In this document: piece by piece, positions 13,038 through 23,829 of the stretch | Layout: each line of letters starts with the position of its first letter | Position numbering within the stretch: position 1 is the first letter of the stretch | Assembly: GCA_029262895.1 (NCBI GenBank) | Contig: JAJCYM010000074.1 | Span: 1 to 64,000, forward strand | DNA length: 64,000 nucleotides | Reading direction: 5' to 3' | Origin: Roseivirga sp. | Lineage (GTDB): Bacteria > Bacteroidota > Bacteroidia > Cytophagales > Cyclobacteriaceae | The notes under the pieces: generated by a model | The model's database searches: none | What the model was told of the DNA's origin: nothing | Seen by the model: only the letters and a program-made list of their open reading frames with translations | Made by a program: the position numbers and the translations under genes

Positions 13038-13901
13038 TTAAACCCCGATAATTACTTTCGAAGTAGCAATTCCGGCAAGCATAAACTCACAGAGTGCTTT
13101 TGCCTGTCCTTCCACTGTTGGTATGGCGGCAATGTCTGAAGCCCTTAAGACAGCCCCATTAAAGGGAGAAGAAAGCCACTCGCCATGAGGCAGATCGGGC
13201 ACATTGTCATAGGAATTATCTCCATCTGCCGACCAGGTGGTGATATAATAGTAGGGTTCATCACTGGCTTCGTCATGAATGCCCATTCCTATACTAAAAG
13301 ACTTGGTGGCATTTCCATTCTCATCAAAGGTCATCGGGATATAAGCACCATGGTCAAAATGGTGAGGCCAGGTTCTTACGGTAGAAGCAGTTTTGTATTG
13401 AGCAGCAAAGGCTCTTAGAATCAAGTCGCTGTTTTCCCGGTGTTTAGCTATTTCGGCAAACAACTCTGGATTTTGGAAACTGTAGGTTGCACCATCATCA
13501 GTTGCGTGATGAGGGATATCATAATGGATATCCAACTTCATTTTATCACTATCCACTTCAAATTGGTGGAGATGGATTTTCACCCAATCCAGGATCTGAG
13601 CATTGGTCAATCCCTCCAATCGACAATTGTCAACCTCATTCATGTCTTTATCATACATGAGCAAAGTGAGTTCCTTCGACCTCATGGCAAATCGAAATTT
13701 CCCTTTTGGACTATCCGCCCAATTGCCGGCCAGGACCTCTTGATCGTTGAGCCATTCCAAATTCGTATGACTATCATCAGGTTGGTTTTCAACATAGAAC
13801 TTGCCCACCATGGCAATAAACTGAACTCCACGATGGATGAGGTCGGTGGCAGGAGCCAAGGTTTTTGGATTGAGCGTCAGCAATTTCCAGTTATTCATCA
13901 T
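13038..13901 (-). CDS. DUF5996-like protein
   Basis: A 287-residue probably cytoplasmic protein. It resembles DUF5996 proteins: TRTWPHHFDHG-like histidine motif (TWPHHFDHGAYIP), a SIGMGIHDEASDEPYYYITTW segment that matches the family's GDEGIPEPYFYVTAY, and a closing GEWLSSPFNGAVL. No function is known for the family. I start at ATG 13901, which forms an ATGA overlap with the upstream zinc-ribbon gene; an upstream in-frame ATG at 13952 would overlap much more. It is the last gene of a four-gene operon with SRPBCC and DUF427 proteins. Confidence 0.7.
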   Translation of the reverse strand: MMNNWKLLTLNPKTLAPATDLIHRGVQFIAMVGKFYVENQPDDSHTNLEWLNDQEVLAGNWADSPKGKFRFAMRSKELTLLMYDKDMNEVDNCRLEGLTNAQILDWVKIHLHQFEVDSDKMKLDIHYDIPHHATDDGATYSFQNPELFAEIAKHRENSDLILRAFAAQYKTASTVRTWPHHFDHGAYIPMTFDENGNATKSFSIGMGIHDEASDEPYYYITTWSADGDNSYDNVPDLPHGEWLSSPFNGAVLRASDIAAIPTVEGQAKALCEFMLAGIATSKVIIGV

Positions 13902-14170
13902 AGGCTTATTTCTTTTAAATCTTTGCTGTAGTTTTTTTGGCAAGTAGGACAAACATAGCCTTGTGCATGTTTTTTCAACTGGATGCCGCTTACATGGTTA
14001 ACCACAAAATCCTGAATGAAGGCATGTCGGCTGTTGTTATTATTAACGTCAATTTGCTTGTCCTCCATAAGGTCGATGGCCTTGCCACCATATTCCTGGA
14101 GTCCCCAACAATTTGGGCACACTCCTTCAGGTTTCGGAAGTGGATTCTTTTTCCAATGAAAGAGTCCCAT
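13898..14170 (-). CDS. small zinc-ribbon protein
   Basis: A 90-residue protein with two CxxC pairs, CPNC (about 18-21) and CPTC (about 74-77), probably one zinc site. The middle is polar (DKQIDVNNNNSRHAFIQDF). No enzyme motif is seen. It overlaps DUF427 upstream by one base and the DUF5996-like gene downstream by four bases, so all are translated from one transcript. Confidence 0.75.
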   Translation of the reverse strand: MGLFHWKKNPLPKPEGVCPNCWGLQEYGGKAIDLMEDKQIDVNNNNSRHAFIQDFVVNHVSGIQLKKHAQGYVCPTCQKNYSKDLKEISL

Positions 14171-14451
14171 CAGTTTTCGATTTGAACACCTTTCCAGAAG
14201 GCTACATGATTCTTGATTCCTTTTGCCAACTCTGAAGTTTCAGGATAGTACCAGGCGGCATCTGTATTTTCGCTGCCATTCACTTCCAAACTGTAGTAGC
14301 TGGCCAGGCCTTTCCATGGGCAAGTGGTGTGCGTGTTACTTTCTTTGTAATACTCTTTTTTGATTGAGTCATGTGGGAAATAGTGATTGCCTTCAACCAC
14401 CACTGTTTCATTGCTTTCTGCAATTACTTCTCCGTTCCAAATTGCTTTCAT
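14170..14451 (-). CDS. DUF427 domain protein
   Basis: A 93-residue single-domain DUF427 protein. The family pattern is clear: MKAIWNGEVIAESN, EGNHYFPHDSI, then TTCPWKGLASYYSLEVNG and DAAWYYPETSELAKGIKNHVAF. The CPWKG and AWYYP motifs probably line a pocket. The reaction is unknown; DUF427 proteins are widespread cytoplasmic beta proteins. It is the second gene of the operon, two bases after the SRPBCC gene's end. Confidence 0.92.
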   Translation of the reverse strand: MKAIWNGEVIAESNETVVVEGNHYFPHDSIKKEYYKESNTHTTCPWKGLASYYSLEVNGSENTDAAWYYPETSELAKGIKNHVAFWKGVQIEN

Positions 14452-14452
14452 A

Positions 14453-14902
14453 TTATTCTGTTCTGGTGTTTTCTTCTAAAATTCTCTTGATTTCTTTGAG
14501 GTCCTTTTTATTCGCTTTTCTCATCATTGGAACCATTAATGGCGCCATTAGTTTTGAAAAGCCTTTTGGAAGACCTCTGTTTCTCAAAGTCATTAATGTT
14601 TTTTCCGCCCCAATAGTTTCCCAGGTGTATGTGGTCTCCATGGGGAAGGGTCCATTTGTCGTCTTCATGACCATTTTTTGATGAGGGATTAGCTCCTGAA
14701 CTCCGTAAACATAAGAGAGCTGTTTACCCATGAATTCTGCCTTGAAACCTATTTGAGATCCAATTTGCAGAGGTTTTTCACTGAGCCATTCAGAGGTTTT
14801 TATGTTTACATACCATTCACAAGCGTTGTCAGGATCGGAAGCATATTCATAGACCCTTTCCAAGGGAGCATTTATTTCGATTTCGGTGATTACATCTACC
14901 AT
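14453..14902 (-). CDS. SRPBCC/polyketide cyclase-like protein
   Basis: A 149-residue START-like (SRPBCC) protein: VITEIEINAPLERVYEYASDPDNACEWYVN at the N-terminus is the usual opening, and TYTWETIGAEKTLMTLRNRG and the long C-terminal helix close the helix-grip fold. Such proteins bind hydrophobic ligands. The tail is basic (MMRKANKKDLKEIKRIL). It is the first gene of the operon, 24 bases downstream-facing from malic enzyme's end, so it could be read through from the larger operon upstream. Confidence 0.82.
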   Translation of the reverse strand: MVDVITEIEINAPLERVYEYASDPDNACEWYVNIKTSEWLSEKPLQIGSQIGFKAEFMGKQLSYVYGVQELIPHQKMVMKTTNGPFPMETTYTWETIGAEKTLMTLRNRGLPKGFSKLMAPLMVPMMRKANKKDLKEIKRILEENTRTE

Positions 14903-14926: not shown

Positions 14927-16543
14927 TTAATAAGTCGGATCAAACATATAATCTGTGATTTCCTGATGAAGGTTTTCTGATTTTTCTGTTCTTGCCAGCC
15001 CAAGATCGTATATATTCTCGGCTACCGCAACGGCAATGTTCAATGAAATATCCCTGATATTTGGCAAAGGTGGGTATAGCGAGCCCAGCAATATATCATC
15101 GTCACTAACCTGTTCTGCCAGTACTTTAGCGGCTACGAGAAAGGTTGCTTCAGGAATCCGTTTTGCTTCTGAATGGATTGCTCCCAAGCCAATTCCAGGA
15201 AAGATATAGGCATTATTACCTTGCCCGGGTTTGTAGGTTCTTCCACTATAAGTCACTTTTTTGAAAGGGCTACCACTGGCAAAAACTGCGTTTCCGTTGC
15301 TCCAGGAATAGGCTTGCCTGGCAGTACATTCTGCACGTGAAGTGGGATTGGAAAGTGCGAAAATGACCGGCCTGTCATTGATGGCTGTCATGCGCTCAAT
15401 TACTTCCCTTGTAAATGCACCTCCAAACCCTGTTGCCCCGATAAGCACTTGAGGTTGAATTTCATCAATGGCTTCAATGAATTCCATTTCTTCGTGATCA
15501 TGGGCATAGGGTAAATTATGCTCCATCAAATCATCTCTACCAGAAACTACAAGACCGTTGATATCAACAAACCAAAGTCGTTGTATGGCCTCGTCCTTAC
15601 TCAGTCCTTCCTTTTCAAATGCCCGAACCATTAAATCTGCGATTCCCGTGGCGGCAGATCCCGCACCAAGGAACATTATTTTAAGGTCTTTGAAAGGAAT
15701 CCCCGTGATTTTGCTGGAAGCATAAACACCGGCAAGCGTGACGGCTGCTGTACCTTGAATATCATCATTAAAGCAAAGCACTTTTTTGCGATATTTCCTA
15801 AGTAAGGCATAGGCGTTGGGTGTCAAAAAATCCTCAAATTGAATCAGAGCCTTTGGATATTTGTCCTGTATGGCCTGAACAAATTCATCCACCAGTTCGA
15901 AATAGGCATCACCTTCGAGACGCTTATGAGGATAGCCCAGGTAGAGAATATCATTGAGTATTTCCTCATTATTGGTGCCTACATCGAGCATTACCGGCAA
16001 GCATTGGTCTGGCTGGATTCCGGCACAAGCAGAATAAAGTGCCAGTTTGCCTATTGGAATTCCCATACCGTTGGCCCCTAAATCTCCTAAGCCCAGAATT
16101 CGCTGTCCATCTGTGACCACTACAACTCTGATGTCCTTTTTTGGCCAATTGTCTAAAATCTTGCGAATCTCGCCTTTGTCTTCCGGTGAAATATAGAATC
16201 CTTTGGATTGGCGAAAGATTGTCGAGAACTCCTTACACGCCTGACCCACTGTAGGCGTGTAGATAATTGGCATGATTTGCTCAATGTGGTCGATTACAGT
16301 TCGATAAAAAAGCCTCTCGTTTCTGTCTTGAAGAGAAGATAGGAGCACATATCTCTCAATATCGGATTCTTTGCGTCCAAGGTTTTCCATCAGACGAGTC
16401 ATCTGTAATTCCTGTGGACTCACTGAATAGGGTAGCAATCCTCTAAGTCCGAGCTCTTCTCTTTCTTCTCTTGAAAAGGCAAGAGATTTGGTAATTACTC
16501 CATCTTGGAGCACATCGAAATTTCTCTTTTCGGTATCGGCCAT
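14927..16543 (-). CDS. maeA: NAD-type malic enzyme
   Basis: A 538-residue malic enzyme (malate + NAD(P)+ to pyruvate + CO2 + NAD(P)H), of the long SfcA/MaeA type. Visible landmarks are MPIIYTPTVGQACKEFS, VVVVTDGQRILGLGDLG with the catalytic region, CFNDDIQGTAAVTLAGV, the Rossmann motif FLGAGSAATGIADL and IFALSNPTSRAECT. Length is normal. NAD preference is inferred from the family branch. It lies 16 bases downstream of the Rieske-ThDP enzyme and is the last gene of the leftward operon starting at 23011, which links pyruvate production to that pyruvate-type ThDP enzyme. Confidence 0.93.
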   Translation of the reverse strand: MADTEKRNFDVLQDGVITKSLAFSREEREELGLRGLLPYSVSPQELQMTRLMENLGRKESDIERYVLLSSLQDRNERLFYRTVIDHIEQIMPIIYTPTVGQACKEFSTIFRQSKGFYISPEDKGEIRKILDNWPKKDIRVVVVTDGQRILGLGDLGANGMGIPIGKLALYSACAGIQPDQCLPVMLDVGTNNEEILNDILYLGYPHKRLEGDAYFELVDEFVQAIQDKYPKALIQFEDFLTPNAYALLRKYRKKVLCFNDDIQGTAAVTLAGVYASSKITGIPFKDLKIMFLGAGSAATGIADLMVRAFEKEGLSKDEAIQRLWFVDINGLVVSGRDDLMEHNLPYAHDHEEMEFIEAIDEIQPQVLIGATGFGGAFTREVIERMTAINDRPVIFALSNPTSRAECTARQAYSWSNGNAVFASGSPFKKVTYSGRTYKPGQGNNAYIFPGIGLGAIHSEAKRIPEATFLVAAKVLAEQVSDDDILLGSLYPPLPNIRDISLNIAVAVAENIYDLGLARTEKSENLHQEITDYMFDPTY

Positions 16544-16559
16544 AGACTAAGTTAAGTGG

Positions 16560-18506
16560 CTAAATCAATGACACATCTGCAATCACTTCCAGCATTGCAG
16601 GTCCGTCATGTGCAAATACTTTTTTCATACCTTCTTCAAGTGCATCCTTGGTTTCTACCCGAATGCCAAGTGCTCCGCAACTATTGGCATAGTCAGCAAA
16701 GTTTGGGTTATGCAGGTCGGTAGCCCAGACATCAAATTCTCCGGCCCTCTGTTCCTTCGAAATTTTGCCCAACTCAGAGTTGTTCAGAAGGATCAGCTTG
16801 ATTGGCATGTTGTATTTCACAGCTGTGGTAATTTCCGCCAAGTACTGGCAGAAGCCACCGTCACCAGCCACGGCAATTACGGCACGTGAATCACCCACTG
16901 CGGCCCAGGCACCCATGGCAGCAGGGAAACCAAAGCCAATAGAGCCGAGGTAACCTGACATTAAGAAGGTGTGCTTTTTGCACTCGAAATATCGGCCTAG
17001 AGAATAGGCATTGTTGCCAACGTCTGCACAGACCACCGCATTTTCCGGAGCTAATTTGTTCATGGCTTCGAAAACGGCAATGGAGCTTACACCGGCACCA
17101 TGGTCATCGAGTAGCCTTTTTGCTTTTTCAGACTTCCAAATGGCCCAGCGCTTGGCCACCTCAGGCCTGCGATCTTCTGTTTCTACCTTGCCGGAAATGG
17201 CCTCTCTGAACAGACCTACGGTCACTGAGATTTCACCCCAAACGGGGGCATCAATTTTATGAAACTTACTTAGGGCCAAAGGATCGAAATCAACCTGAAT
17301 AGTCGGTTTGTGATCTGTAATGCCAGTATGGTTGGAGAATGAAGCTCCAAAGACACAAAGCAAATCTGATTCATTCATAAACCACGAAGCTATTGGAGTT
17401 CCGCTGCGTCCCAATACTCCGCAACCCAAGGGGTGATTATCAGGAATTTGCCCTTTTCCTTTAAAGGTTGTCATCACTGGAGCATTGATGCTCTCAGCAA
17501 ATGCTATGATCGCATCCATATGGAATCTGGCCCCATGTCCAACAATGATAACAGGCTTTTTGGAGGCCTTAAACATGTCAATGGCCTTGTCCAAACTTTC
17601 TTTTGGAGGGGAAATTTGCATTGGAGTCATGCGGCCTTCGGGTGTGCCGGCTGCTGAATTTTCAGGTGCAGGAAGCTCTTGTACCTCGTCCGGAAAGGTG
17701 AGGTGAGATACGTCTCTGTTCAGAATAGCATGTTTCACTGCAAGTGCCATCAATTCCGAATGCTTGGAATTATTCTGAGCGCGATGGTTGAACTCCGCTA
17801 CAGTGCTAAACGCTTTTACCAAATCTACTTCCTGGAAATTTCCGGTGCCCACCACTTGTGTGGCCACCTGGCCGGTCAAGGCAAGGATAGGGGCTCGATC
17901 TACTTTGGCATCCCAAAGACCGGTGAACATATTGGTGGAACCTGGTCCGGCAATGGCAAAGCAAGCGGCAGGTTTGCCGGTTAACTTTCCATAGGCGGAA
18001 GCAGCAAATGCCGCAGCACCCTCGTGACGGATTCCGAAGAATTTCAAATTACCTTTTTCTTCCTGTCTGCGCAAGGCATCGGCAAAACCTAAATTAGAAT
18101 GACCTACCATGCCAAATACTCGGTTTACACCCCAGTTCACCATGGTTTCGGCCATCACATCAGAGATGGTGGTTTCATGTTCAGCTTCTTGCTCAATACC
18201 TACATAGACAGCTCCATTCTCCTCTTTGGTCAGGAAAGTATCTACACCATCATCAAAGCCAGGAGCTATTCCAGTACAAGGATGATAATCCCATCCATGC
18301 CATGGGCAACGCAATAATCCATTTTCGATACTCCCTTCTCCAAGTGGTCCTCCTTGATGTGGACATTTGTTGTCTAAAGCGGAGAACTTGCCTTCGAAAT
18401 GTGTTAAACATATGCCTTGATGTTCTGCTGTGACAGACATTACTCTTCCTTCCGGTAGCTCATTAGTATCGTCAAGTACCTTATGCCATTTTAAATTCTT
18501 TCCCAT
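16560..18506 (-). CDS. Rieske-ThDP enzyme fusion (pyruvate oxidase/acetolactate synthase-like)
   Basis: A 648-residue fusion. Residues 1-105 are a Rieske ferredoxin domain with ligands Cys48, His50, Cys67 and His70 (CPHQGG and CPWHGW). Residues 110-648 are a ThDP-dependent enzyme of the pyruvate oxidase/acetolactate synthase class: catalytic Glu162 (IRHEGAAAFAA), central domain from about 300, and the ThDP/Mg motif GDGG at 548-551 with Asn575. The partner substrate is probably pyruvate or another 2-oxoacid. A Rieske domain on such an enzyme suggests that electrons from the decarboxylation leave through the cluster instead of to O2 or not at all. It is four bases from DUF2721 upstream and next to malic enzyme. 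Which reaction it performs is not established. Confidence 0.88.
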   Translation of the reverse strand: MGKNLKWHKVLDDTNELPEGRVMSVTAEHQGICLTHFEGKFSALDNKCPHQGGPLGEGSIENGLLRCPWHGWDYHPCTGIAPGFDDGVDTFLTKEENGAVYVGIEQEAEHETTISDVMAETMVNWGVNRVFGMVGHSNLGFADALRRQEEKGNLKFFGIRHEGAAAFAASAYGKLTGKPAACFAIAGPGSTNMFTGLWDAKVDRAPILALTGQVATQVVGTGNFQEVDLVKAFSTVAEFNHRAQNNSKHSELMALAVKHAILNRDVSHLTFPDEVQELPAPENSAAGTPEGRMTPMQISPPKESLDKAIDMFKASKKPVIIVGHGARFHMDAIIAFAESINAPVMTTFKGKGQIPDNHPLGCGVLGRSGTPIASWFMNESDLLCVFGASFSNHTGITDHKPTIQVDFDPLALSKFHKIDAPVWGEISVTVGLFREAISGKVETEDRRPEVAKRWAIWKSEKAKRLLDDHGAGVSSIAVFEAMNKLAPENAVVCADVGNNAYSLGRYFECKKHTFLMSGYLGSIGFGFPAAMGAWAAVGDSRAVIAVAGDGGFCQYLAEITTAVKYNMPIKLILLNNSELGKISKEQRAGEFDVWATDLHNPNFADYANSCGALGIRVETKDALEEGMKKVFAHDGPAMLEVIADVSLI

Positions 18507-18509
18507 GAT

Positions 18510-18908
18510 TTATGCTTTGGATATGCTCTTTAAATATTGATTTCTTTTGATTTTGACAGACCTTATTGAAAAGGTCATTAACAATAAAGTGGCAACTACC
18601 AATGTGGCTATTCCGATGATTACAAGTATATGATGATAAGTGATATCGATCATGATATCCTGAAGGTCAGAGATGCCTCCGAGTAGGCCGGCTACAGCAA
18701 AAACTGCCGTGCTGATGTACAAACAGACCAGAGAGATATTGAGAAGCGACATTTGAGTAATCTTAATCTCTACCAAATGTGTATTGCAATCTTCCTGATG
18801 TAGCAGCCTATCTATTTCACTGCTTATTGCACTGGATAGGTTGGAAGTTGACATGATCATCATGCCAATGCCTGGTAAGAGTGTTAATGGAATTACCCAA
18901 TCATCCAT
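18510..18908 (-). CDS. DUF2721-like membrane protein
   Basis: A 132-residue protein with three likely membrane helices (about 3-24, 54-78 and 92-116). It resembles DUF2721: an initial LLPGIGMMIMSTSNLSSAISSEIDRL, a central helix pair and a C-terminal basic end. No catalytic residues are seen. Its ATG overlaps the stop of the 267-residue gene by one base, and its stop is four bases before the Rieske-ThDP gene, so it belongs to the operon. It may anchor or organise the complex, but this is inference. Confidence 0.7.
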   Translation of the reverse strand: MDDWVIPLTLLPGIGMMIMSTSNLSSAISSEIDRLLHQEDCNTHLVEIKITQMSLLNISLVCLYISTAVFAVAGLLGGISDLQDIMIDITYHHILVIIGIATLVVATLLLMTFSIRSVKIKRNQYLKSISKA

Positions 18909-19711
18909 TAGTCAAGTCTTTTAATTTTCGTTGGATCAATATAGATCACGTTCCACTCGTCCAGGGTTTCAATTCTGCCCGAAATGGATGCCGGGTCGGC
19001 TATATATCGAAGCAATTCGTTGTTGATCTGCTCACCATTTTCACCCAAAATCAGGTAGTAGTTGGCCTGCTCTTCTTCATTTTGAACAACAAACATGGGA
19101 GGAATACCTCCCGCAATGCAAAGTCCGGCACATGAACGATGCGGTTTACCTTGTCCCGGTTTCATCGATCCGAAATAACATTTTGGGTCTATAATCTCTC
19201 CACTTAAAGTCACATTTCCTGGACCACCACTGTTTTCGCGATAATAGAGATGTTCGCTTTGGATTGGCTTTGAACTCAGATAAGCATTCCCTTTTTCGGT
19301 TAGTTCGAGTAGGGTCACACCATTATGATAAATGAGTGTGCCTCTTATTTTGACCATAACTTCGTTTAGGGGCTGGCCAATTTTATCCTTGATTTTGCTG
19401 ACCGACTCCATGGCGCCAATTTTACCATAGTTGATCAAAAGAATGTTTTTGTACACTTCATGTCCATGGATGTCGGTACCGGCACTAACCTTTAAAAACG
19501 GTTGAGGGCTTTCATAGAGATAACCTTCCAGTTCTGTCAATTCTCCGAATTCATAAGTGCCATTGGAGATAAAGCGCTGTGAAGTTGAAATGACATACAC
19601 GACAACAAACAAGAGCAGAAAGAGCAGTGCTATAACGAGCTTTGCAAACTTTGATATGCCCTTATCTGCCTTAGGCATATAACCGACATAGAATTCTTCT
19701 TTCTTATCCAT
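18908..19711 (-). CDS. membrane-anchored protein with conserved-looking Cys/His motif
   Basis: A 267-residue protein with one N-terminal membrane helix (about 24-43) and the rest outside the cytoplasm. Residues 170-210 contain GEIIDPKCYFGSMKPGQGK followed by HRSCAGLCIAGGIPP, placing Cys178, His191, Cys194 and Cys198 close together. This looks like a metal or cofactor site. I recall similar motifs in uncharacterised proteins beside membrane redox enzymes, which needs a search. Its start overlaps the Rieske-haem protein gene by eight bases. It could receive electrons from the membrane haem protein, as an inference from position. Confidence 0.6.
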   Translation of the reverse strand: MDKKEEFYVGYMPKADKGISKFAKLVIALLFLLLFVVVYVISTSQRFISNGTYEFGELTELEGYLYESPQPFLKVSAGTDIHGHEVYKNILLINYGKIGAMESVSKIKDKIGQPLNEVMVKIRGTLIYHNGVTLLELTEKGNAYLSSKPIQSEHLYYRENSGGPGNVTLSGEIIDPKCYFGSMKPGQGKPHRSCAGLCIAGGIPPMFVVQNEEEQANYYLILGENGEQINNELLRYIADPASISGRIETLDEWNVIYIDPTKIKRLD

Positions 19712-20747
19712 TGTTGTCGATTTTTGGAAATAAAACTGGTGGCCTTTCAGTTCCCTCAGGATAAGGTTGAGGATTTACTAATACTTTGTTACCCTCGAGC
19801 TTCAGATCATAGGTGCTCACCATCTCCTTAAAAGGAGGTGGAGAAGATCCATTCTGTGGTTCATATTGGTAGCCATGCCATGGGCAGGTCACACAGCCGT
19901 CAATCACTTTGCCTTCACCCAGTGGTCCGTTTTGATGCTTGCAAACATTATTAATTGCCGAGAGCTTGCCGTCATACTTGAAGATGGCAATGTTCTCACC
20001 ATTGAAGGTCACAATTTTAGCACAGTCATCTGCGATGTCTTTGAGGTCACAGGCATAGATAAATTCCTCGGTAGTCTTTTCATCAAGTCCCTTTGTAGAG
20101 CTTATTGAACTGATGATATGGAGTGAGGTGATGGCAAGAAATCCAAATGCCAACAGCCAAATCAATGTGGGTGCAGATTCAAGTTGAATCACCCCTAAAA
20201 AGACATGGAGTACGATTAGGGAATAGGCCACATAGACCATCATGTGGAGTGTTTTCCATACCCTAGGGCTGAGATTTTTTAGCCAGAAGTCATGACTGGT
20301 AGCTGCCATTAAAAAGAAGATGATCAAGGCTGCAAAGCCCAGTACTTGAAATGGGAACTCTGTGAATGAGAAGTAATTGGTATTGGAGGTGAATAGCGCA
20401 ACCAAAGCCACCTTATTGCCTAAAGAACTGAATTGCAGTATGCTAAAGACCCCATGGACCAAAGCCACTAAAAACATCGTCACACCTAGATGTCTGCGAT
20501 TATAGAGCAGTGGTAAAAATTTTGTATTGAGCCTGGCCAGAGGCCCAATGGCTAGGATTATGTGCAATAATAGAATCGCTAAAGTGGCCGTTGCCCTGAT
20601 AATCAAAGTCTCTCCGGTAATTTCGGGCTGGAAAATAGTGGTTAACCCGACAAAGGCTCCTAAATAGACAATCACAAAGGCAACCAAAGTCCAATCATAG
20701 ATCTTCTTTTGCCGGTTCCATAATATGGCTGCGTAGTCTACACTCAT
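19704..20747 (-). CDS. ferric-reductase-like haem membrane protein with C-terminal Rieske domain
   Basis: A 347-residue fusion. Residues 15-215 have six or seven membrane helices like the ferric-reductase/MsrQ/NOX transmembrane domain, with candidate haem ligands His62, His98, His168 and His181 and the loop RRHLG. Residues 228-330 are a Rieske domain with Cys269, His271, Cys288 and His291 (CKHQNG and CPWHGY). Usually this membrane domain is followed by a flavin reductase module; here a Rieske cluster takes that place. The Rieske part is probably cytoplasmic, so electrons would move from it across the membrane through haem. It overlaps its neighbours by 4 bases upstream and 8 bases downstream. 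Confidence 0.85.
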   Translation of the reverse strand: MSVDYAAILWNRQKKIYDWTLVAFVIVYLGAFVGLTTIFQPEITGETLIIRATATLAILLLHIILAIGPLARLNTKFLPLLYNRRHLGVTMFLVALVHGVFSILQFSSLGNKVALVALFTSNTNYFSFTEFPFQVLGFAALIIFFLMAATSHDFWLKNLSPRVWKTLHMMVYVAYSLIVLHVFLGVIQLESAPTLIWLLAFGFLAITSLHIISSISSTKGLDEKTTEEFIYACDLKDIADDCAKIVTFNGENIAIFKYDGKLSAINNVCKHQNGPLGEGKVIDGCVTCPWHGYQYEPQNGSSPPPFKEMVSTYDLKLEGNKVLVNPQPYPEGTERPPVLFPKIDNNG

Positions 20748-21187
20748 TGTTTGAGGTCCTTCAGGGCTTTTGTGTCAAATATATTTTTGGTAAGCTCATC
20801 CTGAACTTGAACATTATCGCTTTGAAGAAAAACTGTATTTGGAATACTGAACTCATAAGACCTCATCTCATTGATCTGACCAATCAATAAAGGACTGCTT
20901 CCGGTCAGATAAACAGTGGCAAAGGCCGACTTTAATGGCTTAAGCAAATCAACTTTTAAGAGGTATGTGCTGTCCAGTTTTTCTAAGTGCCATACCAAGA
21001 CATCGTCAGGATTAAACTCTTCATGGCTGGACGTGCAGGTGGTCATTCCAACAGGACAATAGGTCATGGGAACGTCTTCAATCGGATTAGTCGGGATACT
21101 TTTCATGGCGGCCGATATAGCAAATCCGACTACAATTAACACAGTCCACCACATTCTCCTATGCCGTTTTCTCAGATGGATATTCAT
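20744..21187 (-). CDS. membrane-anchored protein of unknown function (Rieske operon)
   Basis: A 147-residue protein with a basic N-terminus (MNIHLRKRHRRMWW), one membrane helix (about 13-31) and an exported domain of about 115 residues. The first part of that domain has CPVGMTTC just after PMTY and then SSHEEF, possibly a disulfide or metal site. I recognise no family. The start is ATG 21187, giving an ATGA overlap with the gene before; a longer in-frame start (21226) would overlap more. Its stop region overlaps the Rieske-haem gene. A periplasmic partner of the haem protein is plausible. Confidence 0.6.
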   Translation of the reverse strand: MNIHLRKRHRRMWWTVLIVVGFAISAAMKSIPTNPIEDVPMTYCPVGMTTCTSSHEEFNPDDVLVWHLEKLDSTYLLKVDLLKPLKSAFATVYLTGSSPLLIGQINEMRSYEFSIPNTVFLQSDNVQVQDELTKNIFDTKALKDLKQ

Positions 21188-21396
21188 GCTTTTGCAGCCC
21201 TCCATTTTTTTAACAAAACGGGCCACAATGCCACCACTCCCGGAAAGATCAAAACCTTGAAAAAGCGCGGTGCCTTTTTTACCCCACCATCCATTAAATG
21301 AACGCCAGTCTTCATAAAAGGGAAGTAGAAGACAATCCCGATTAAGAGATAAAGGCCAGCCATTATCAGCAATATGGAAACGATTTGAACTACCAT
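21184..21396 (-). CDS. small two-helix membrane protein (Rieske operon)
   Basis: A 70-residue protein with two hydrophobic segments (about 5-27 and 46-60) joined by GVHLMDGGVKKAPRFFK, ending PGVVALWPVLLKKWRAAKA. Such size and pattern suit a small subunit of a membrane complex. No family name is certain. It starts one base after the Rieske-glutamate-synthase-like stop codon and overlaps the next gene by four bases. Confidence 0.65.
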   Translation of the reverse strand: MVVQIVSILLIMAGLYLLIGIVFYFPFMKTGVHLMDGGVKKAPRFFKVLIFPGVVALWPVLLKKWRAAKA

Positions 21397-21397
21397 T

Positions 21398-23011
21398 TTA
21401 AGGGTTTACTCCCGCATAAGGAATGCCCGTCAGTTTGTGCATGTCCCAATTGAAGGTGCTTAAATCAGATCGCTCAAATTTTGAGAGATCATCATGTCCG
21501 CAAGACCTGGCAACTACTCGCATCAGGTCAGTGGTGGCACTGAAAAAGTTGTGCAACTGCTTGGCCGAGGCCTGAATTTGTAAACGCTGCCTTAGGTTTT
21601 CTTTCTGTGTGGCAATACCCACAGGACAGTTGTTAGTGTTGCAGGCTCGCATGCCCAAACAGCCAATGGCTTGCAATGCTGAATTAGAAACGGCTATGGC
21701 ATCAGCCCCCATCATCATGGCCTTTGAAAAGTCCTCTGCTACCCGGAGTCCCCCGGTAATTACTAGAGTTACCCCATGTGCATTTCTATCGTCCAAATGC
21801 TTTCTGGCTCTGGCCAATGCAGGAATGGTAGGAACGTTGATGTTATCTCTCAAAATCGTTGGTGCAGCTCCGGTTCCACCACCTCGTCCATCAAGGATGA
21901 TATAATCTACGCCAACCTCCAGCGCAAAGTCGATGTCATCTTCCAGCCTGGCTGCGGATATCTTAAAACCGACAGGAATACCCCCTGTAACCTCACGGAC
22001 TTTTTCGGCAAAGTCCTTAAAATCCTTGACACCATGAAAATCAGGGAAGGTAGCCGGAGAGATGGCTGACTCTCCTTCATTCAGACCCCTGACCTCAGCA
22101 ATTTCTTTGGAGACTTTGTGACCGGGTAAATGTCCGCCAGTTCCTGTTTTAGCGCCTTGACCTCCTTTAAAATGGAAGGCTTGTACGTTTTTAAGTTTAT
22201 CCCAGCTAAAGCCAAATTGTGCCGAAGCAAGCTCGTAGAAATAGCGAGAGTTGCTTTCCTGCTCCTCTGGAAGCATGCCGCCTTCTCCTGAACAAATACC
22301 GGTTCCGGCCATTTCAGCACCCTTGGAAAGTGAGATTTTAGCTTCTCTGGATAATGCTCCGAATGACATATCAGATACAAACAAAGGGATATCCAATTCC
22401 AATGGTTTCTTGGCATTCGGACCAATTACCACTTTTGTTCCTACATCTTCATGGTCTAGCAAAGGCCTTCTGGAAAGTTGTGCAGGAAGGAATTGAATGT
22501 CTTCCCATTTAGGTAAGGTGTTCCTATCGACACCCATGGCGTCCGTTGGGCCATGATGCCCCCAGTTTTTTAAGCCGTTTTGTGCGAGTTCTTTAATGTA
22601 GCGGGTATAAGGTTCTGTGCTTTCCGGATGTGTGTCGGCATAGGCCCCTAAGTAGGAATCTCGGTCGAAGGGGGCAGGGTTCGCTACCTCGAAGTCTTTA
22701 ATTTCTTGTCTATCAACAAGCACCTCATCTCCACTGATTTGTGCTTCGAACTTGTTTAAAACTTCGCTGTTATTGTATTCACTAACACCAGTATCGATTC
22801 TATAATCCCAGTTGTGGACTCCGCAAATCAGGTTATGTCCATCAACATGACCATCGGATAGCAATGCTCCACGGTGCAAACAGCGACCGTAGAGTACGGA
22901 AACCTCCTGACCGTAACGGATGACTACTAAATCGGTATTTTCTACTAAAGCATGGGTCGGTTCCTTATCCAGTAGTTCGGAAAAATTGGCAACCTTGATC
23001 GGGTCTTTCAT
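21398..23011 (-). CDS. Rieske-glutamate-synthase-like FMN/FeS protein
   Basis: A 537-residue fusion and the first gene of the operon. Residues 1-110 are a Rieske domain with Cys44, His46, Cys63 and His66 (CLHRGALL and CGVHNWDY). Residues 130-537 are the FMN-binding barrel of the glutamate synthase large subunit: GGQGAKTGTGGHLPG, VGFKISAARLEDD, ILDGRGGGTGAAP, and the cluster motif CLGMRACNTNNCPVG with three Cys for a 3Fe-4S cluster. The amidotransferase domain and the C-terminal glutamate synthase domain are absent, so it is not a normal glutamate synthase. A redox relay of Rieske, FMN and 3Fe-4S is a reasonable reading. Substrate unknown. Confidence 0.88.
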   Translation of the reverse strand: MKDPIKVANFSELLDKEPTHALVENTDLVVIRYGQEVSVLYGRCLHRGALLSDGHVDGHNLICGVHNWDYRIDTGVSEYNNSEVLNKFEAQISGDEVLVDRQEIKDFEVANPAPFDRDSYLGAYADTHPESTEPYTRYIKELAQNGLKNWGHHGPTDAMGVDRNTLPKWEDIQFLPAQLSRRPLLDHEDVGTKVVIGPNAKKPLELDIPLFVSDMSFGALSREAKISLSKGAEMAGTGICSGEGGMLPEEQESNSRYFYELASAQFGFSWDKLKNVQAFHFKGGQGAKTGTGGHLPGHKVSKEIAEVRGLNEGESAISPATFPDFHGVKDFKDFAEKVREVTGGIPVGFKISAARLEDDIDFALEVGVDYIILDGRGGGTGAAPTILRDNINVPTIPALARARKHLDDRNAHGVTLVITGGLRVAEDFSKAMMMGADAIAVSNSALQAIGCLGMRACNTNNCPVGIATQKENLRQRLQIQASAKQLHNFFSATTDLMRVVARSCGHDDLSKFERSDLSTFNWDMHKLTGIPYAGVNP

Positions 23012-23106: not shown

Positions 23107-23829
23107 TTAGGAATGAGTGATCCAAGATGTCTTTTTACTTGCCAATTCTGTGTTTCTGAGGAAGTAGAGATAGCTGGCCAGTAGAAAGGCTCCTATGCCT
23201 GTGAAAATATGCCATAAGAAGTGTGTACCAAATGCGACATATTCTGTGAATTGTTTGTCGGCTCCACGGAAATAGATGGCCAAAATGAAACATGCTATGG
23301 CAAAGACAATTTGCAGGGCGCCCTTCATTTTGGTTTTTCTAAGTACAAGTAGGAATGGCAGTAAAAAAGCAACCCCGCCAATGACATAAGACATATTGAT
23401 GGCAGCCTGCCCTGAAAAATAGCTAAAAACTGCGGTGCGCAGCAAATAAACTCCGACCACCACCAAAACACCCATCCACCATTTGGGCATTACCTTTATC
23501 CATAGATAGGCGGTGATAGAAAGAGTTAGGAGTAGGGCGGGCATATAGTCCATAAGCAAAAAGACCCTTGAAGTTCTCAGGCCATGGAATAGGGTACTTC
23601 CCAAACCATTGATAAAGAGAATTGGAATACAATAAAGAAGAAACCCATATTGCAGTGGCTCTTTTCGAATCTTCCAGAGAAAGTAAACAGCCGGGGCTGC
23701 AATGGCCAGGGATGAAAAGGCATTCCATGGTTCTACAATAAGATTATCGGTGATATGCGTTTCGGCATACCATGGGCCGCCATCTTTGATTTGTTCTGGT
23801 CCTAAGAGCATAGGTTGAATTATTACCAT
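23107..23829 (-). CDS. ceramidase-like CREST membrane hydrolase
   Basis: A 240-residue protein with about seven membrane helices. It has the CREST superfamily pattern of alkaline ceramidases: Ser78 and His82 (GSTLFHG), Asp94 (LLMDYMP), and a late His203/His207 pair (HFLWHIF), which together bind zinc. The enzyme would cleave an amide in a sphingolipid or related lipid; many Bacteroidota make sphingolipids, which supports a ceramidase-type role, but the substrate is not shown. It lies 95 bases upstream of the Rieske operon in the same direction and may share a transcript. A second in-frame start (M7) is possible. Confidence 0.8.
   Translation of the reverse strand: MVIIQPMLLGPEQIKDGGPWYAETHITDNLIVEPWNAFSSLAIAAPAVYFLWKIRKEPLQYGFLLYCIPILFINGLGSTLFHGLRTSRVFLLMDYMPALLLTLSITAYLWIKVMPKWWMGVLVVVGVYLLRTAVFSYFSGQAAINMSYVIGGVAFLLPFLLVLRKTKMKGALQIVFAIACFILAIYFRGADKQFTEYVAFGTHFLWHIFTGIGAFLLASYLYFLRNTELASKKTSWITHS

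Follow-up and report, generated by a model that had tools for sequence, protein, structure and literature searches.

Recurrent Rieske-domain fusions in a Roseivirga gene run and their possible wiring into a modular redox system

The window analysed here is a 64,000-nucleotide stretch of Roseivirga sp. (contig JAJCYM010000074.1, positions 1 to 64,000), in which a run of eight genes at 14927-23011 encodes three different Rieske fusion proteins: one with a glutamate-synthase barrel (GltS_R), one with a ferric-reductase-like haem domain (FRD_R) and one with a thiamine diphosphate (ThDP) enzyme (R_ThDP). A check of the open reading frames of the window matched the number, strand and positions of the eight close-packed leftward genes described in the original prediction, which had been made from the sequence alone: all eight are on the minus strand, and successive genes, in the order listed, are separated by 1, -43, -4, -8, -1, 3 and 16 bases (negative values being overlaps). 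Loci counted in the list are R_ThDP loci, the best 80 of 567, picked by patterns that included Rieske residues.

21398..23011, minus strand: GltS_R, N-terminal Rieske domain plus flavin mononucleotide (FMN)/3Fe-4S glutamate-synthase barrel, 537 amino acids (PF00355, 46 bits; PF01645, 301 bits)
21184..21396, minus strand: mem70, small membrane protein with two predicted transmembrane (TM) segments (no Pfam family; homologue in 21 of 80 loci)
20744..21226, minus strand: exp160, single N-terminal anchor, remainder predicted outside (no Pfam family)
19704..20747, minus strand: FRD_R, six-TM ferric-reductase-like haem domain plus C-terminal Rieske domain (Pfam Ferric_reduct and Rieske)
18908..19711, minus strand: CysHis, TM anchor plus two OB-like domains (no Pfam family)
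18510..18908, minus strand: DUF2721-like membrane protein (PF11026 at 25.8 bits, below the cut-off of 28.3)
16560..18506, minus strand: R_ThDP, N-terminal Rieske domain plus pyruvate-oxidase-like ThDP enzyme, 648 amino acids (Rieske and three TPP_enzyme domains, N/M/C)
14927..16543, minus strand: malic enzyme, large type, 538 residues (NF010052, 709 bits against a cut-off of 326)

The fusions form a recurrent set that is conserved but modular. They were counted in a phylum sample of 395 genomes, with Fisher tests in which kinship was ignored: FRD_R was found in 13 genomes, R_ThDP in 11 and GltS_R with its Rieske domain in 48 (including two copies with an in-frame stop, in G460 and G491, and leaving out 12 further genomes with only a Rieske-less GltS match). 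R_ThDP and FRD_R occur together in 6 genomes against 0.36 expected (p = 1.4e-7), and GltS_R is present in 10 of the 11 R_ThDP genomes (p = 2.9e-9) and in 12 of the 13 FRD_R genomes (p = 3.3e-11); with the window's own genome removed, all three p values are still ≤ 2.4e-6. The order sample contained FRD_R in 3 of 148 genomes, the window's counted. Of the 39 relatives searched, 19 belong to the window's genus, and in these the three sets are nested, with R_ThDP in 9, FRD_R in 11 and GltS_R in 12 genomes: nine genomes carry all three, two carry GltS_R plus FRD_R, one carries GltS_R alone and seven carry none. Absences mean little in G620 (80% complete) and G614 (84%), and one stop is listed for the FRD_R copy of G613.

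Beyond the phylum sample, the best 80 R_ThDP loci, which represent 79 genomes, are mostly from Bacteroidota, together with Shewanella hanedai, two Chlorobiota and one Pyrinomonadaceae. GltS_R was found in 48 of these loci, FRD_R plus CysHis in 24 and DUF2721 in 28, and such neighbour counts are lower bounds because many loci are short contigs; L083-L086 correspond to the loci of G610, G613, G615 and G608, so that these four also enter the genus counts. The one genome contributing two loci (G543; L106 and L114) holds its two R_ThDP copies in different contexts. On plasmids, R_ThDP was found at E ≤ 1e-100 in four haloarchaea and one Mycobacteroides, with GltS_R on the same plasmid in three haloarchaea, about 1.4, 4 and 17 kb away. 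The haloarchaeal plasmid loci (L163-L166 and L170) place R_ThDP and GltS_R among merA-annotated reductases, rhodanese, DsrE, TauE/SafE, NAD(P)H-hydrate epimerase and redox genes.

By comparing 19 stretches, two modules were defined: (i) a membrane module (mem70, a small anchored protein, FRD_R and CysHis), seen in L004 and L005 with neither GltS_R nor R_ThDP close by; (ii) a soluble module (GltS_R, DUF2721 and R_ThDP), seen in L048 and L049 with no FRD_R close by. Both modules come together in the window, L037 and L039. Conservation of the gene set as a block, a check named in the original prediction, was borne out as co-occurrence above chance and not as a strict block, the linkage being modular and partial.

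In the three fusions of the window the Rieske ligands are intact (CLH..CGVH, CKH..CPWH and CPH..CPWH), and the Pfam matches and ligand motifs agree with the prediction of three such domains on different partners. Alignments of the homologues of each fusion show these ligands unchanged, save for one gapped GltS_R row. Since Rieske residues were part of the patterns by which the R_ThDP loci were picked, the ligands were rechecked in five plasmid matches and in 11 matches found without the Rieske pattern (window counted), all 11 of which have the ligands as well as E162, F224-Q225, D549 and K581 of R_ThDP. The best models for all three domains (that of R_ThDP scored alone) are the dioxygenase ferredoxins HcaC and AndAb, followed by NirD and others, all below cut-off. 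Rieske proteins of the bc1 (high-potential) type carry an extra disulfide Cys pair, and no such pair was found between the ligands in the three window domains. Domains of the dioxygenase-ferredoxin type are usually of low potential. Because all three best match dioxygenase-ferredoxin models (below cut-off), the high potential that had been assumed for these clusters is not supported.

The closest solved relative of R_ThDP is E. coli PoxB (PDB search; 251 bits over residues 113-643), and the Glu, the ThDP motif and the F-Q pair that mark pyruvate oxidases are in place, in agreement with the predicted pyruvate-type ThDP enzyme. All 86 homologues, archaeal and actinobacterial ones included, have the four Rieske ligands, E162, F224, Q225, D549 and K581, and G550, N575 and N576 are kept in 85, 84 and 82, respectively. 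All 86 also end five residues past the PoxB-aligned part, where PoxB has 45 more; R_ThDP lacks a C-terminal membrane-binding peptide of the PoxB type. Among the 25 NCBIfam models listed of 57, none was matched above its cut-off (best 399 bits against 742). R_ThDP is closest to the pyruvate oxidases, and its resemblance to them in motifs suggests that it may turn over pyruvate and bind flavin adenine dinucleotide (FAD).

The barrel of GltS_R keeps its cluster cysteines C451/C457/C462 in 52 of 52 homologues, and the Rieske ligands are present in 51 of the 52 aligned, the remaining row being gapped. T289 (52/52), T291 (51/52) and H294 (52/52) stand where solved glutamate synthases have P, E and Q, and no amidotransferase domain was found, the 537 residues matching a Rieske domain and a barrel only; GltS_R is not called a glutamate synthase here.

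A different flavoprotein appears to take the place of GltS_R in some loci. In eight loci R_ThDP is preceded, 0.07-2.3 kb upstream, by an FMN_red flavoprotein (PF03358), which in L092 and L104 holds, gene for gene, the place that GltS_R has in L091. Among the 78 genomes searched for it (those of the 80 loci apart from that of L152), a close orthologue (87-100% identity) was found in nine, all of them within the 19 that have no detected GltS_R, and in none of the 57 that have GltS_R (Fisher test, 1.6e-6). In G501 a Rieske domain is itself fused to an NADPH-dependent FMN reductase domain (L020:715-1827, minus strand), whose FMN_red part is only 25% identical to the FMN_red of L092. Further genomes of the taxonomic family to which G501 belongs (f37) have comparable Rieske matches, in open frames 243-416 residues long. 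The swap may mark FMN_red and GltS_R as exchangeable flavoprotein electron partners, and it possibly reflects one event.

FRD_R has six predicted TM segments, and its Rieske domain is predicted to be cytosolic from charge bias. The haem-type residues H86, H98, H168 and H181 are invariant in 23 of 23 homologues, and with the six TM segments they are consistent with the original suggestion that the haem protein could move electrons across the membrane. Against the curated MsrQ model FRD_R reached 47.7 bits (cut-off 130), and the MsrQ/YedZ mark of an Arg for the first haem His is absent, H86 being kept in 23/23. In CysHis, D175, K177, C178, M183, H191, C194 and C198 are invariant in 29 of 29 homologues; it had no PDB sequence match at E ≤ 1, and the best Pfam E value for any of 27 members was 0.069. 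CysHis and exp160 (18908-19711 and 20744-21226) had been called exported, and both look instead like single-anchor proteins with the N-terminus inside.

FRD_R is also carried by five Rhizobium plasmids, with a CysHis homologue adjoining in both of the two examined. In those two (L168 and L169) FRD_R and CysHis lie near a Rieske-less ThDP gene and a coenzyme A (CoA) transferase gene, read divergently; the Rieske-less ThDP gene of L168 is acetolactate-synthase-like, below cut-off. In loci of the L091-L110 type, CysHis is followed on its 3′ side by a longer conserved series of YHS, LysE-, DinB-, NRDE- and ATP-grasp-like genes (the latter four labels assigned by eye) and then by a reversed YpdA-type reductase gene.

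The block does not stop at 14927. The eight genes stand as predicted and the boundary does not: four further genes, with gaps of 24, 1, -1 and -55 bases, extend the run leftward as far as 13038.

14453..14902, minus strand: SRPBCC (Polyketide_cyc2) protein (Pfam; 24-base gap to the malic enzyme gene)
14170..14451, minus strand: DUF427 protein (PF04248, 112 bits; in 14 of 80 loci)
13898..14170, minus strand: 90-residue protein with CPNC and CPTC motifs (10 of 81 loci, window counted)
13038..13952, minus strand: 304-residue protein, a recurrent neighbour (no Pfam match; in 43 of 80 loci)

A consensus scan gave 15 terminator-like sites on both strands against 11.2 expected, and no minus-strand site in the internal gaps of the run; a single transcript of 12 genes is plausible on this layout. 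DUF427 and the 304-residue protein, which is possibly DUF5996-like, remain downstream in most genus relatives, at times after 1 kb or more. exp160 has a tblastn match in 11 of 80 loci, and its cluster covers 21 of 81, the window counted. Upstream of GltS_R, a ceramidase-like membrane protein is encoded at 23107-23829 and is kept there in most of the genus members examined.

Neighbouring genes in some bacteria, and partly in archaea, here encode Rieske-bearing enzymes that probably exchange electrons with each other and with the membrane. The best explanation, which we consider possible if short of probable, is a Rieske-wired redox module made up of R_ThDP, GltS_R and an optional membrane conduit. 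Its starting points are the co-inheritance of the fusions, the intact ligands, the four haem-type His, the predicted topology and the missing PoxB tail, from which we infer the electron transfers, their outward direction, pyruvate and the other substrates, the FAD and the final acceptor. R_ThDP would use ThDP (probably with FAD) to oxidize a 2-oxo acid, for which pyruvate is the likeliest candidate, and the electrons would exit singly via its own N-terminal, low-potential [2Fe-2S] Rieske cluster. E. coli PoxB reaches quinone through a C-terminal membrane peptide, for which this Rieske domain would be the substitute. These electrons would reach GltS_R, or FMN_red instead; the Rieske cluster of GltS_R would exchange electrons with the FMN/3Fe-4S centre and so replace the GltD subunit or ferredoxin. 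In genomes that have the membrane module, electrons of this pool would also enter FRD_R at its cytosolic Rieske domain and cross the membrane over two b-type haems, to be taken up by the extracytoplasmic OB-fold protein CysHis or by quinone.

Several observations weigh against this wiring. FRD_R is missing from 5 of the 11 R_ThDP genomes, so the membrane module is not obligatory, and the two genes are neighbours in only four of the six phylum-sample genomes that share them. Homologues occurring apart from one another, which the original prediction had named as evidence against a linked system, are seen for GltS_R alone, 32 of whose 48 genomes lack both R_ThDP and FRD_R; the ThDP and haem fusions do not show this pattern (10/11 and 12/13 with GltS_R). 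In addition, 19 of the 79 R_ThDP genomes show no GltS_R and two only a Rieske-less one (several are incomplete metagenome-assembled genomes), and the neglect of kinship in the Fisher tests also counts on this side. The invariant K581 aligns with a Phe of PoxB, and therefore the substrate may not be pyruvate. More distant FMN_red homologues (50-54% identity) are present in 6 of the 47 genomes whose GltS_R is linked, and the displacement by FMN_red may be one event because the orthologues are 87-100% identical. Finally, malic enzyme does not track R_ThDP: it accompanies GltS_R in 12 of 12 genus genomes.

The last point bears on the chain proposed originally, from malic enzyme through pyruvate and the ThDP enzyme to the haem protein, in which a supply of pyruvate was the reason for the linkage. 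All nine genus genomes with R_ThDP, the window's included, do carry at least one malic enzyme in the block, and two types occupy two slots there, one of ~400 residues between GltS_R and mem70 and one of 538 residues after R_ThDP; farther afield, the small type lies 0.3-0.4 kb after R_ThDP in L155 and L162. Against this, malic enzyme was found in only 6 of the 80 R_ThDP loci, or 2 of 76 once the four genus loci are removed, and the blocks of two near-complete genomes keep it without R_ThDP: G612 has the large type after CysHis, and G617, which lacks FRD_R as well, has the small type adjoining GltS_R. Since malic enzyme goes with GltS_R in the genus and is found in only 2 of 76 loci elsewhere, a malate-to-ThDP chain is not what the linkage shows, and we regard it as quite unlikely. 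The prediction that genus genomes without R_ThDP would lack malic enzyme failed, as G612, G617 and G620 have it, the last (80% complete) as a small type on a 3.4-kb fragment. In 20 phylum loci, the window's among them, the surroundings of GltS_R out to ~1.5 kb showed no malic enzyme.

The recurrent neighbours point to another reading, in which the locus is a stress island whose three Rieske enzymes are co-regulated in a response to redox or pH stress, each served by its own reductase and not wired together. A Na+/H+ antiporter is found in 38 of the 80 R_ThDP loci, a YpdA-type reductase in 18 and a Crp-type regulator in 17, with YjeF_N near R_ThDP in five bacterial loci and a histidine-specific methyltransferase in five; the merA-annotated reductase, TauE, rhodanese and DsrE genes of the archaeal plasmids would fit as well. 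Such an island leaves unexplained why these enzymes gained Rieske domains and why another flavoprotein stands in the place of GltS_R, and we hold it to be somewhat unlikely. A purely soluble coupling, with R_ThDP oxidation driving the FMN centre of GltS_R (reductively or in reductive amination) and the membrane module as an accessory, would account for GltS_R being present in 10 of 11 R_ThDP genomes against 6 of 11 for FRD_R, and for R_ThDP and GltS_R standing without FRD_R nearby in L048, L049 and the archaeal plasmid stretches. It is unlikely in view of the missing amidotransferase domain, the T289, T291 and H294 replacements of P, E and Q, the 12 of 13 genomes in which FRD_R accompanies GltS_R, and the GltS_R genomes that are without either of the other fusions.

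If the fusions cooperate as the Rieske-wired module has it, Rieske domains would act as interchangeable connectors that link the membrane with a carbon-oxidizing and an FMN enzyme, a role beyond those in respiratory complexes and oxygenases; pyruvate-type oxidation would gain a route to the membrane without PoxB-like docking, and CysHis, DUF2721, DUF427 and the 304-residue protein, several uncharacterized conserved families, would acquire a role. The soluble fusions are amenable to purification, which opens the wiring to a direct test. A wider claim, that this is an undescribed cytosolic system where a Rieske plug serves unrelated oxidoreductases as common electron currency and FRD_R exports electrons to a new extracytoplasmic OB-fold Cys/His family, with parts across Bacteroidota, Chlorobiota, Acidobacteriota, Pseudomonadota, an actinobacterial plasmid and haloarchaeal plasmids, is put forward as a doubtful one. 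A full-text literature search, judged by titles and the starts of abstracts and with most subscription journals outside its coverage, gave no description of Rieske-ThDP or Rieske-GltS fusions, consistent with the original remark that no system of this layout was known.

Among known systems, PoxB and LpPOX resemble R_ThDP in the ThDP fold over its full length and in the Glu, GDG-NN and F-Q motifs at aligned places, whereas R_ThDP has an N-terminal Rieske domain, no C-terminal extension and a Lys at the PoxB Phe position. Pyruvate:ferredoxin oxidoreductase is likewise a ThDP enzyme giving single electrons to Fe-S centres, but has another domain order, depends on CoA and uses a ferredoxin partner. 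GltS_R shares the PF01645 barrel and the C-x5-C-x4-C cluster ligands with the large subunit of glutamate synthase, and differs in having no amidotransferase part, an N-terminal Rieske domain and T/T/H for P/E/Q. Two kinds of related fusion are already known. Fusion of a [2Fe-2S] domain with Glu_synthase, as in GltS_R, was described in 2018 for CDGSH (PMC5859297), which is not a Rieske domain, and the excerpted text of that paper mentions no linked ThDP or haem fusion. Rieske is named among the domains attached to ferric reductase domain (FRD) proteins in a figure legend of 2013 (PMC3591440). FRD_R is like YedZ/MsrQ and the NADPH oxidase (NOX)/ferric-reductase-domain proteins in its six TM segments, Ferric_reduct domain and His pairs; it keeps all four haem His, whereas in YedZ, according to the same paper (PMC3591440), an Arg replaces the first, and, unlike the NOX/ferric-reductase-domain proteins, it carries a Rieske domain where the FAD/NADPH domain would be.

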